Origin: Deinococcales bacterium
GTDB taxonomy: Bacteria; Deinococcota; Deinococci; Deinococcales; JAAFIG01
DNA: 44,635 nucleotides
Direction of reading: 5' to 3'
Assembly (NCBI GenBank): GCA_013298595.1
Contig: JAAFIG010000040.1
Location: forward strand, 1-44,635
The translations under genes were made by a program, and so were the position numbers. Below are positions 122 through 44,468 of the stretch, in pieces (within the stretch, counting starts at the first letter, position 1; every line of letters begins with the position of its first letter). The notes beneath the pieces were generated by a model. It searched no databases, was not told the DNA's origin, and was given only the letters and a program-made list of their open reading frames with translations.

Positions 122-264
122 TTTTTATTATCTCGAGAAAGCTCGAGAAAAGAACAAAGAAACAAAAACATAGAAGTAAGATTAGTTGAAAAACAACCAC
201 ACAAGCAGTACAATTAAAGCTCGAGAACACCAAGAACTCGAGAAGAACAAAAAGAATATGGAAT

Positions 265-340
265 GCGGGAGTAACTCAGCTGGTAGAGTGCAACCTTGCC
301 AAGGTTGATGTCGAGAGTTCGAATCTCTTCTCCCGCTCCA
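265..340 (+). tRNA. tRNA-Gly (anticodon GCC)
   Basis: A complete cloverleaf can be drawn. The acceptor stem is GCGGGAG/CTCCCGC, the D arm ACTC/GAGT, the anticodon stem CAACC/GGTTG with loop TTGCCAA (anticodon GCC), and the T arm GAGAG-TTCGAAT-CTCTT. The discriminator T is followed by an encoded CCA. It follows the 5S gene by about 140 bases of A-rich sequence containing four CTCGAG copies. Confidence 0.95.
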
Positions 341-349
341 AAAACAAAG

Positions 350-370
350 ACCCCTCGAGCAATCGGGGGT
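350..370 (+). terminator. Possible terminator after tRNA-Gly
   Basis: ACCCC-(T)-CGA pairs with TCG-GGGGT around a GCAA loop. The T tract that follows is poor (TTGCTTT), so it is a weak candidate. One CTCGAG lies in the 5' arm. Confidence 0.4.
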
Positions 371-420
371 TGCTTTGCATTGTACCTTTGGTAGTATGGG
401 GCGCAAAGCTGGAGGTTCAA

Positions 421-705
421 GTGTTGATTCTTCTTTTTGGTCTGTATTGCCTTGTTACGGGAAAGTGCAGTGTTAGCCGCACAATCGCTCTCAATAAAAT
501 AGGTGCGCGGCTTGCTGGAGTTGCGTGTATTTTGATGGGTCTCGGATTTTTCTCTATAATTTCAGTTCCCATAGCAATGTTAGCAGGACTCATTGGTTTG
601 AACGGGACAGGTATTGGCATAATCAACTTCTTAACTCAACTTATAGTTATGTTTATCATTATTTATCTGCTTAGCAAAAAATATAGAGAGACAAACTTAC
701 AGTAA
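421..705 (+). CDS. Small integral membrane protein, unknown function
   Basis: The protein has about 94 residues and three hydrophobic segments: the extreme N-terminus, a middle segment around ACILMGLGFFSIISV followed by a Gly/Ile-rich stretch, and a C-terminal segment before a basic SKKYRE tail. I chose the GTG at 421 because a good Shine-Dalgarno GGAGGT sits at 411-416; the open frame extends upstream to a TTG at 370 without such a site. The gene contains no CTCGAG and is AT-rich, unlike the core genes, so it may be accessory DNA. I do not recognise the family. Confidence 0.55.
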   Translation: MLILLFGLYCLVTGKCSVSRTIALNKIGARLAGVACILMGLGFFSIISVPIAMLAGLIGLNGTGIGIINFLTQLIVMFIIIYLLSKKYRETNLQ

Positions 706-814
706 ATACTCAACAAGTTATGGTGGTATAAAGCCTGTACGTCAGGCTTTGTCTCGACTTTTCTTGCTCAAGCTTGCGCCTTGGCTTCTTCTCGAGACTT
801 TGCGGGTTATCTGC

Positions 815-820
815 TACACT
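815..820 (+). promoter_or_regulatory. Leaderless -10 element TACACT
   Basis: TACACT is followed by six bases and then the ATG at 827. This TANNNT-to-start spacing recurs before many genes in the window and is typical of leaderless transcripts in Deinococcus and Thermus. No good -35 is visible. Confidence 0.55.
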
Positions 821-826
821 AAACCC

Positions 827-961
827 ATGACCGTCACTTTGCCAACTCAACTCGAGCATTGGGTTTCTTCACAAATCCAAGATGGCATGTATGCCGATAC
901 CAACGAAGTTCTGGTTGATGCCCTCGAGTTACAAAAAATCTTTGGAGATAAAAATTTATGA
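827..961 (+). CDS. ParD-like antitoxin, short or truncated
   Basis: A 44-residue protein starting MTVTLPTQLEHWVSSQIQ and continuing DGMYADTNEVLVDAL. This matches the ribbon-helix-helix ParD/CopG pattern: a beta strand with alternating residues, then W-V-x-S-Q-I, then a G-x-Y-x-(S/D)-x-x-E-(V/Y)-(L/V)-x-(D/E)-A-L block. Typical ParD proteins have 80-90 residues with a C-terminal toxin-binding helix, which is missing here. The stop overlaps the next start (ATGA at 958), so the two genes are translationally coupled, but the partner is an NTF2-like protein and not a ParE toxin. I infer that the toxin-binding half was lost. Confidence 0.6.
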   Translation: MTVTLPTQLEHWVSSQIQDGMYADTNEVLVDALELQKIFGDKNL

Positions 962-1326
962 AACAAAATACCAATGTTTTGATGGAGATGTTAGCGGCTT
1001 GGAACGAAAGAGACTTAAATCAAATCCGAACGCATATCGACCAATCAATTGCCGAAAATGTTGTCTTTGCCGATCCGACAAATTTTATTCACGGGCGAGA
1101 TGCTTTTGAAGAAATGATTAAAGAATTTCGGCTAGAAAATCCCAAAGCGATTCTTAGACCGACGAGTGGCGTGGATTCGCACAACAACCGCTATCGTTAT
1201 AGTTGGGGAAATTATGTTGGCGGAACGCTGACCGTCAAAGGTTTTGACGTGGTGACATTGAATGAAAACGGATTAGTTGAAAGAGTTGACGGATTTTTCG
1301 GCGATTTGCCGCCATTGGAAAGCTAA
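958..1326 (+). CDS. NTF2-like / SnoaL-like domain protein
   Basis: A 122-residue single-domain protein. The order is an N-terminal helix (LMEMLAAWNERDLNQIRTHID), then FADPTNFIHGRDAFEEMI, a central RYSWGNYVGG strand and a final GLVERVDGFFGDLPP segment. This is the usual SnoaL/NTF2-like layout, in which the cone-shaped fold holds a small ligand or acts as an enzyme; no substrate can be read from the sequence. It overlaps the ParD-like gene by four bases. There are no CTCGAG copies inside, in contrast with the two other NTF2-like genes in the window (9319 and 22316), which suggests a recent arrival. Confidence 0.7.
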   Translation: MKQNTNVLMEMLAAWNERDLNQIRTHIDQSIAENVVFADPTNFIHGRDAFEEMIKEFRLENPKAILRPTSGVDSHNNRYRYSWGNYVGGTLTVKGFDVVTLNENGLVERVDGFFGDLPPLES

Positions 1327-1432
1327 AAAAATTATGAGATTTTCTGCGCCTCAGAGCATCGTGGGTGATGAAAGTCAGGGATGGTGTGGCTAGTTCTCGT
1401 ATAACAATGTCAATTTGGTTTTGGGCGCAGTT

Positions 1433-1543
1433 TCACGGCGTAAAATCTCGAGGAATGTATTCTTCGGGGCTGCTGTGTTTTTGATTGGCAAGTTGTTTTA
1501 TTTGATTGGCTAGGTTTGGTTCTAATTCGAGTTGTAATTTCAT
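1433..1543 (-). pseudogene. Ribbon-helix-helix antitoxin-like fragment
   Basis: A 36-residue frame, MKLQLELEPNLANQIKQLA followed by NQKHSSPEEYI, has the N-terminal strand and first helices of a CopG/RHH antitoxin but stops early. A strong Shine-Dalgarno (GAGGAGG) precedes the ATG. The 15 bases GAGGGCATCATGAAA around its start are shared exactly with the higA start at 24214. It is probably the remaining N-terminus of a decayed antitoxin gene. No toxin is recognisable downstream. Confidence 0.45.
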
Positions 1544-1562
1544 GATGCCCTCCTCAGTTTGG

Positions 1563-43158: not shown

Positions 43159-43235
43159 AAAATCCTCCTTCGCTCCCCGCTGCTCGAGAATTTGCGCTCG
43201 AGATGGGTGCTTAACGCGAAGTTTGTTTTGAACCT

Positions 43236-43297
43236 CTAGCCACTAGCTTCTAGCGACTAGCTTAAAACCTTTTTGAGAGCTTCTAGTCATTGACTAG
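43236..43297. repeat. CTAGCCACTAGCTT microrepeat (nusG-rplK gap)
   Basis: Two tandem 14-base units CTAGCNACTAGCTT (43236-43263) are followed at 43283-43297 by the palindrome CTAGTCA-T-TGACTAG. A related tandem lies at 44319-44350. The rest of the 182-base nusG-rplK gap shows no gene. Confidence 0.6.
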
Positions 43298-43340
43298 TTT
43301 AAGATATAACCCCGAGTACACATCTTTTTCGAGCCAGAAA

Positions 43341-43928
43341 TCAGCTTTTGGCAACTTGTGAAAACTCAAGTTCAACTGGGGTTTCACGTCCGAAAATACT
43401 GACCAGCACTTTTAACTTGCTACGCTCGAGGTTGACTTCTGAAACCACACCCGTGAAATCGGCAAATGGTCCGGAAGTAACTTTAACTTGATCGCCTTCT
43501 TTAAAGCTGGCTTTGACAACGGTTTTCTTGACTTTGGTCTGCTCGATAATACCCACTTGTTTGAGAAGATTATTGACTTCATCAATGGTCAGTGGAAATA
43601 AATCGGTTGGACGTTGCGGGTTTTTTGTGCCCACAAAACCAGTCACACCTGCCGTGCCACGCACTGTTTCCCAAGCCTCGTTGAGTTTATCGGGTTCTTC
43701 TGGGTCGACAACATCCATTTGCACAAAAACATAGCCTTGATAGGTTTTTTTGCGCTCGGTGACTTTCTTCCCATCTTTACCCATTTCAACGGTTTCTTCG
43801 GTTGGAATCAGTACTTGAAAAATTTTATTACCAAACATGCCCAAAGCTCGAGCGCGTTGCTCGACATTGGTGGACACCTTGTCTTCCTGCCCAACGTAAG
43901 TGTGAACGGCGTACCACTCAATAGCCAT
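43341..43928 (-). CDS. nusG: Transcription elongation/antitermination factor NusG
   Basis: 195 residues. The NGN domain ([57 protein letters not shown]) and the KOW motif ([20 protein letters not shown]) are intact. It couples transcription with translation and Rho. It begins three bases after the secE stop with GGAGG upstream. Confidence 0.96.
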
Positions 43929-43931
43929 AAC

Positions 43932-44123
43932 TCAGCCTCCCGAAGCCAAACGGAACAAACCATTTGTCAGCGCTGTGCGGAATATCGTGTCCATAGCCCA
44001 GAACAACAAAGTCATTACCAGCACATACACCAGAACGGTTTGTGTACCTTGAATAACTTCGTCTCGAGTTGGCCAGGAAACGCGTTTTAATTCTTCCCAC
44101 GCTTCGCGGAAGTAATTCATCAT
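43932..44123 (-). CDS. secE: Preprotein translocase subunit SecE
   Basis: 63 residues: a short amphipathic helix (MMNYFREAWEELKRVSWPTR) and one membrane segment (VLVYVLVMTLLFWAMDTIFR), the minimal single-span SecE of this phylum. It stabilises SecY in the translocon. It starts just after the rpmG stop. Confidence 0.94.
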   Translation of the reverse strand: MMNYFREAWEELKRVSWPTRDEVIQGTQTVLVYVLVMTLLFWAMDTIFRTALTNGLFRLASGG

Positions 44124-44124
44124 G

Positions 44125-44292
44125 TTAAATCTTCTGCTCTTTGAAAGTCACGTGTTTACGAGCCACAGGATCATACTTTTTCAACTCGAGCTTAGCCGTT
44201 GTGTTACGACGGTTTTTCTCTGAAGCATAAAAGTACCCTGTACCAGCGGACGACATCATTTTGATGATAATACGAGGACCATCTTTTGCCAT
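44125..44292 (-). CDS. rpmG: 50S ribosomal protein L33
   Basis: 55 residues: [20 protein letters not shown] followed by [17 protein letters not shown] and [17 protein letters not shown]. This is L33 of the Cys-free type: the zinc-binding positions read A, S and others. It lies between tuf and secE, as is usual in Deinococcota. GGAAGGAG precedes the ATG; no CTCGAG except one in the C-terminal part. Confidence 0.94.
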
Positions 44293-44318
44293 AAAAACTC
44301 CTTCCCTCCCCCGTGGGA

Positions 44319-44350
44319 AGCCACTAGCTTCTAGCCACTAGCTTCTAGCT
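44319..44350. repeat. CTAGCCACTAGCTT microrepeat (tuf-rpmG gap)
   Basis: Two and a part copies of CCACTAGCTTCTAG in tandem, matching the units at 43236-43263. Confidence 0.55.
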
Positions 44351-44391
44351 TTGGGGTGTGTCGGGTTAAATACCGACTAACGGGCTGTGGG

Positions 44392-44397
44392 ATTGTA
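44392..44397 (-). promoter_or_regulatory. Probable -10 of the rpmG-secE-nusG transcript
   Basis: TACAAT on the minus strand in the 218-base gap between tuf and rpmG; the -35 is weak. Confidence 0.4.
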
Positions 44398-44468
44398 CTA
44401 CATTGTCTTGAGTTTTGCACAGGGCAAATCTCACTTGGTTACGCTACCCAAATTTTACTCGAGCAAAA

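Follow-up and report, generated by a model that had tools for sequence, protein, structure and literature searches.

This contig of a Deinococcales bacterium raises the question of why a single palindromic hexamer, CTCGAG, recurs along its whole length, and of what could keep it there. The initial annotation of the window (the entire stretch of DNA analysed, 44,635 nucleotides) had estimated about 310 copies, more than 25 times chance. Exact counting gives 311, from 132-137 to 44458-44463 at a mean spacing of ~143 bp. Base composition predicts 9.3 copies and a trinucleotide model 22.5, and the runner-up palindromic hexamer has 29 (Table 1). The genome to which the window belongs (G000) contains 27,159 copies in 4,582,226 bases (5.9/kb, ~1 per 170 bases), and the reversed control GAGCTC occurs 15 times across that whole genome. 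Whole-genome counts were obtained by pattern searches, and composition tests on genome samples of up to 524 kb. Palindromic hexamers were counted against a Markov model, as had been proposed for the complete genome, in a G000 sample of 444,635 bases (21 contigs, the window included): CTCGAG reached 2,740 copies versus a motif-masked trinucleotide expectation of 37, i.e., 74x, far above the runner-up (328). Its density lies between 4.9 and 7.8/kb in all the sampled blocks but one (2.9/kb), and it is the dominant over-represented palindrome of this genome. The enrichment is established and larger than the initial annotation stated; the mechanism behind it we infer from the patterns described below. 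The seryl-tRNA synthetase gene of the window has its nearest named relative in Meiothermus taiwanensis (63% identity), and the host is an uncultured bacterium related to Thermus and Meiothermus. The contig starts with a 5S rRNA and a tRNA-Gly (window 5-120 and 265-340), so an rRNA operon is the probable place where the contig broke; further on, at 31863-31979, there is a borderline L10 leader.

Table 1. Features of the window, with position, strand and basis or remark.
Feature	Position	Strand	Basis or remark
CTCGAG copies (311)	132..44463		Exact count
CTCGAG-free stretch, 1.0 kb, within the 3953-5830 gene	4461..5464		Sole such stretch >900 bp in the window
AACTCGTCTCGAGTT, weak terminator-like stem containing CTCGAG	13123..13137	+	Stem scan
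Seryl-tRNA synthetase gene	13253..14524	+	Pfam; orthologue control, 87% identical in G001; placement of organism

The motif is not a property of coding sequence. With genes called by a simple codon-usage caller that we wrote ourselves, 262 copies of the window are coding (phases 0/1/2 = 152/68/42) and 49 fall in 6.9 kb of intergenic DNA. In G000 the density is 6.1/kb in coding and 5.4/kb in intergenic DNA (the latter 34x composition), and the coding copies distribute over phases 0/1/2 as 1711/664/501. Where the residues permit it, the exact hexamer is written in 69% of Leu-Glu, 65% of [APST]-Arg-[VADEG] and 39% of x-Ser-[Ser/Arg] contexts, versus 7, 1 and 1% of the same contexts in the motif-poor genome G004. 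The earlier statements that copies sit in all codon phases and that codon use alone does not explain them are thereby borne out, and an excess produced by codon-pair or composition bias by itself can practically be discarded: it would suit G008 (66% GC), with most of its coding CTCGAG in the Leu-Glu phase, but in G000 phases 1 and 2 are filled in 65 and 39% of the possible places, the intergenic density is nearly equal, the masked trinucleotide expectation is exceeded as given above, and for the f1 and g11 genomes this reading is already refuted. On the other hand, occurrence on both strands carries no information for a palindrome, and the placement of copies inside terminator stems holds weakly, as a few weak stems contain the motif and the two strongest candidates in 1-20000 lack it.

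Four genomes of three genera (G000 and its three sisters, G001-G003) contain 27,159, 26,619, 27,118 and 28,178 copies, with densities alike at sampled GC contents of 45, 49, 59 and 51%. The enrichment does not stem from a single assembly, because the three sister genomes match in count; most of the genomes are drafts, with completeness of 58-97% for those most used. In a second family, genus g11 reaches 6.2/kb in G012 and 7.7/kb in G016 (a genome 58% complete), G004, of another genus, has no enrichment, and G008 has reduced CTCGAG, mostly confined to the Leu-Glu phase. Some genera of families f3 and f5 display a weaker enrichment, ~8-11x composition (G062, G070, G059, G075), and in genus g7 the motif and its reversed control are about equal in abundance. 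Within one order, hyper-motif genera can in this way be compared with genera of partial enrichment and with sisters that lack the motif (G004 beside G012). Long CTCGAG-free stretches mostly coincide with AT-rich, foreign-looking genes, which suggests that incoming DNA would gain the motif only over time. A scan for dense CTCGAG as a sign of a viral link returned GC-rich phages and no clear link.

The comparison of orthologues that the initial annotation had suggested was carried out on 28 gene pairs of G000 and G001 (~30 kb), and CTCGAG proves to be kept between G000 and its sisters far above other hexamers. Aligned copies are kept between G000 and G001 in 112 out of 198 cases (57%), versus 16% for hexamers in general. 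Where Leu-Glu is kept, CTCGAG is also kept at 76 of 94 places in G001, 25 of 32 in G002 and 18 of 20 in G003, compared with a general codon-pair retention of 33, 18 and 26%, respectively; other Leu-Glu codings were retained between G000 and G001 at 6 of 37. Fourfold-site divergence is 0.50-0.57 adjoining kept copies and 0.5-0.6 far from them; the flanks being as divergent as distant sites, the constraint stops at the sixth base and has outlasted the near-saturation of its synonymous neighbours. Single-mismatch states make up 2-11% at motif sites versus 26-27% for other hexamers. A composition-corrected two-state model applied to the ratio of exact to one-off hexamers yields a scaled advantage per site of 3.5-5.1, a rough estimate that ignores amino-acid constraints.

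The effect of the motif extends to the proteins. Of 397 dipeptides in G000, Leu-Glu shows the greatest over-representation, with an observed/expected ratio (O/E) of 2.31, and it stands at 2.25, 2.46 and 2.33 in the sisters G001, G002 and G003 versus 1.04 in the motif-poor G004; Glu-Leu, unlike Leu-Glu, remains at 0.96-1.00 (0.97 in G000). Since 69% of Leu-Glu in G000 is written CTCGAG (7% in G004), motif-coded copies account for the whole of the excess. Ser-Ser reaches 1.51 in G000, and the Leu-Glu and Ser-Ser excesses therefore imply a force that alters amino acids, beyond codons. CTCGAG has changed the proteins, Leu-Glu having more than doubled. Among the encoded pairs that had been regarded as driven by the DNA motif, Leu-Glu and Ser-Ser are confirmed and the third, Ala-Arg-Ala, receives weak support (Ala-Arg, 1.12). 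A DNA motif driving protein composition genome-wide bears on the reading of dipeptide and codon-pair statistics. As a separate observation, G008 (L110, L111, L345, L346) has a Leu-Glu O/E of 1.50, with CTCGAG in 67% of its Leu-Glu, almost none in other phases and scarce copies between genes, a pattern that may be left over from a drive since lost and still recorded in the protein sequences.

The arrangement of the copies relative to one another is informative on the scale at which the motif acts. Leu-Glu places are occupied by CTCGAG at 0.29-0.47 when another site lies at 6-18 bp and at 0.64-0.78 when it lies at 18-300 bp (0.72-0.78 with the neighbour 50-200 bp off), and beyond ~24 bp the occupancy of one Leu-Glu site has no bearing on that of another in the same gene. 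The density of CTCGAG pairs is lowered by ~75% at 6-12 bp and by 50% at 12-18 bp, with a plateau near 60 bp, whereas the depletion of generic 6-bp inverted repeats, which served to control for hairpins, is only 20-30% at 6-12 bp (GC-rich ones ~30%). The short-range exclusion could partly be hairpin avoidance, and overlap at 6 bp would also produce the avoided GAGCTC. No flank consensus beyond the six bases and no helical spacing period were found around the motif. Because sites are independent at 24-300 bp, functions that require a single site in each fragment or kilobase are disfavoured, among them fragment-level uptake bias and the mismatch-repair model of Elhai, which are kilobase-range forms of the uptake or repair signal that the initial annotation had left open. 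Sites on one fragment present no redundancy, and in place of a saturation near one site per kb we find ~6/kb with occupancy level beyond ~24 bp.

As a tentative explanation, to which we give rather less than an even chance, site-autonomous biased conversion or selection via a putative CTCGAG-recognising protein would hold the motif at ~6/kb. A directional force would act on each site separately, at ~6 copies per kb: a dimeric protein would recognise CTCGAG, and one-off variants would be converted to, or outcompeted by, the exact hexamer, with a population-scaled advantage of perhaps ~3.5 to 5 per site, as taken from the ratio of exact to one-off hexamers in the simple two-state model. In one version, local repair or recombination would favour the bound, possibly modified, strand; in the other, each bound site would give a tiny additive benefit. 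Biased conversion and additive selection give the same predicted patterns here, and of the two versions we favour biased conversion coupled to repair or recombination by a putative CTCGAG-binding or -modifying protein. No candidate for such a recognition protein was found. Vsr-like T:G repair was considered and rejected, as the C-to-T one-offs are not depleted in the G000 sample; the two C-to-T one-off states and the T-to-C one-off are enriched ~twofold there, so that a single T:G repair enzyme, Vsr for instance, does not account for what is seen. The broader proposition, that a previously undescribed drive in the Thermus-Meiothermus order acts on exact CTCGAG site by site, may be independent of methylation, is older than the divergence of three or more genera and rewrites the proteome, we consider nearly as probable as its contrary.

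Biased repair or conversion is slightly ahead of an architectural role, under which an abundant nucleoid or architectural protein would bind CTCGAG with a small additive benefit per site (compaction, protection, segregation). The even cover of the chromosome, a density independent of GC, the consensus limited to six bases and an exclusion range of about the size of a protein's footprint would suit such a protein, but the spacings have no helical phasing, a candidate protein is lacking and a genome-wide change of proteins per extra site is a heavy demand on an additive benefit; we regard this role as unlikely, although the strongest competitor. Improbable to a further degree is a DNA uptake signal, i.e., preferential uptake of CTCGAG-containing fragments and their spread by transformation. 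Known DNA uptake sequences are longer than six bases, non-palindromic and near 1/kb, whereas CTCGAG is a six-base palindrome whose ~6 sites/kb should be mutually redundant; its occupancy is undiminished with a site 50-200 bp away and close inverted pairs are depleted. The AT-rich, foreign-looking genes without the motif would fit an uptake signal, as would the abundance of short uptake sequences in Pasteurellaceae and Neisseriaceae genomes (PMC7811141).

A quite improbable alternative is the standard account of such motifs, namely an orphan CTCGAG methyltransferase with methyl-directed mismatch repair over ~1 kb, the motif being a by-product (Elhai's model). It draws on the cyanobacteria, where all genomes containing a high-frequency palindrome encoded a putative methyltransferase that could act upon it (PMC4390886), and on the strong palindrome avoidance seen here, a mark of many restriction-modification (R-M) systems. 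GGCC occurs 11 times versus 1,395 expected and CCGG 109 versus 949 in the G000 sample; TTCGAA, GAGCTC, TGGCCA and CTTAAG are nearly absent and several GC-rich hexamers are at zero. The avoidance is alike in G001 and G003 and weaker for GGCC in G002, suggesting that numerous restriction systems are, or have been, at work. Against this account, the six methyltransferases of G000 all lack an orthologue in at least one of the sisters G001-G003, and no enzyme from four Pfam families is orthologous across the four family members, when PF01555, PF07669, PF00145, PF02086 and PF02384 were searched in hyper-motif genomes and controls; the PF02384 search of G000 added no new candidate. The XhoI-partner methyltransferases (beta-class and gamma-class) resemble the enzymes compared in hyper-motif genomes at 22-28% or in short shared motifs, and the density of CTCGAG is above the saturation at 1/kb that Elhai's model predicts. 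The methyltransferase search proposed along with the methylation-target role thus leaves a standard methyltransferase or R-M link unsupported by homology: family searches return no orthologous or XhoI-like CTCGAG enzyme, specificity not being readable from sequence alone, and a methyltransferase of unrelated type with CTCGAG specificity is possible.

The best shared candidate, a 5mC methyltransferase present in 4 of 81 genomes, all enriched (G000, G001, G012, G062), was rejected as being of HpaII/MspI CCGG type, because its plasmid relatives adjoin MspI/HpaII endonucleases and CCGG is avoided in the hosts. Its loci are L041:1444-2574, L044, L042 and L043:813-2454; it has no evident endonuclease in G000, G001 and G062, and adjoins an HNH-domain protein in G012. 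A gamma-class methyltransferase beside lon (L061, G000) was likewise discarded as common cause, no orthologue having been found in the sisters. It lies at L061:7312-9736 (contig 11 of G000) with a 307-residue protein lacking a Pfam match, and the two genes are a probable type II R-M pair. On contig 34 of the same genome (L069:5994-13665), a DNA methyltransferase and a NotI-like endonuclease are found between S-adenosylmethionine synthetase and B12-dependent methionine synthase, an order that places this R-M pair inside a methyl-donor cluster.

Maintenance of CTCGAG by an XhoI-type R-M system is very improbable: XhoI-family endonucleases do exist in the order (G018, G042, G048, and a broken copy in G009), but none of the hyper-motif genomes searched has one. 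In the f4 genomes that carry XhoI, CTCGAG is about half as common as in other members of their genera, but GAGCTC, the reversed control, is also down by half, and the deficit is not taken as avoidance of the motif. The XhoI-family endonuclease is accompanied by a beta-class methyltransferase in G018 (L354:377-2100) and G048 (L352:3447-5128), and in G009 (L355:1830-3581) a gamma-class partner methyltransferase adjoins the broken gene. G007 contains a 65% relative of the beta-class partner within a 604-residue frame.

Among known systems, the recognition sequence of XhoI/PaeR7I is identical to CTCGAG, but the hyper-motif genomes have neither an XhoI-family endonuclease nor a recognisable partner methyltransferase. 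The uptake sequences of Pasteurellaceae and Neisseriaceae share with CTCGAG thousands of copies genome-wide, genes included, and differ in that the site effects of CTCGAG are independent at 24-300 bp. The alternate cyanobacterial HIPs (GGCGCC in Calothrix PCC 7103, rCCGGy, GCsGC) are also over-represented, lineage-specific short palindromes; they are sporadic and come with a matching methyltransferase, whereas CTCGAG is common to three genera within one family and to a further genus in a second, and a matching enzyme was not found. HIP1 itself (GCGATCGC, with a GATC core and a cyanobacterial host) is a different sequence, GATC being unenriched in G000 and CGATCG present 7 times versus 93 expected. 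CTCGAG further differs from HIP1 in density, ~5,930/Mb versus 300-2,700/Mb for HIP1 counted as an 8-mer, in belonging to another phylum, in its large dipeptide effect and in that no methyltransferase association was found. No earlier description of CTCGAG iteration was found in the open-access literature, which is no proof of absence. The initial annotation's comparison with HIP1, as a genome-scale palindrome of other sequence, agrees with the counts, intergenic density, conservation and dipeptide tests: CTCGAG behaves as HIP1 does and its statistics place it in the HIP class, both motifs being short GC-rich palindromes that are the top over-represented oligomer, lie within and outside genes and are kept in relatives. 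Evidence on HIP1 has so far come from one phylum and from motifs linked to methylation; CTCGAG provides a second, denser HIP from a distant phylum, one that no obvious methyltransferase accompanies, and separates the phenomenon from its usual companion.
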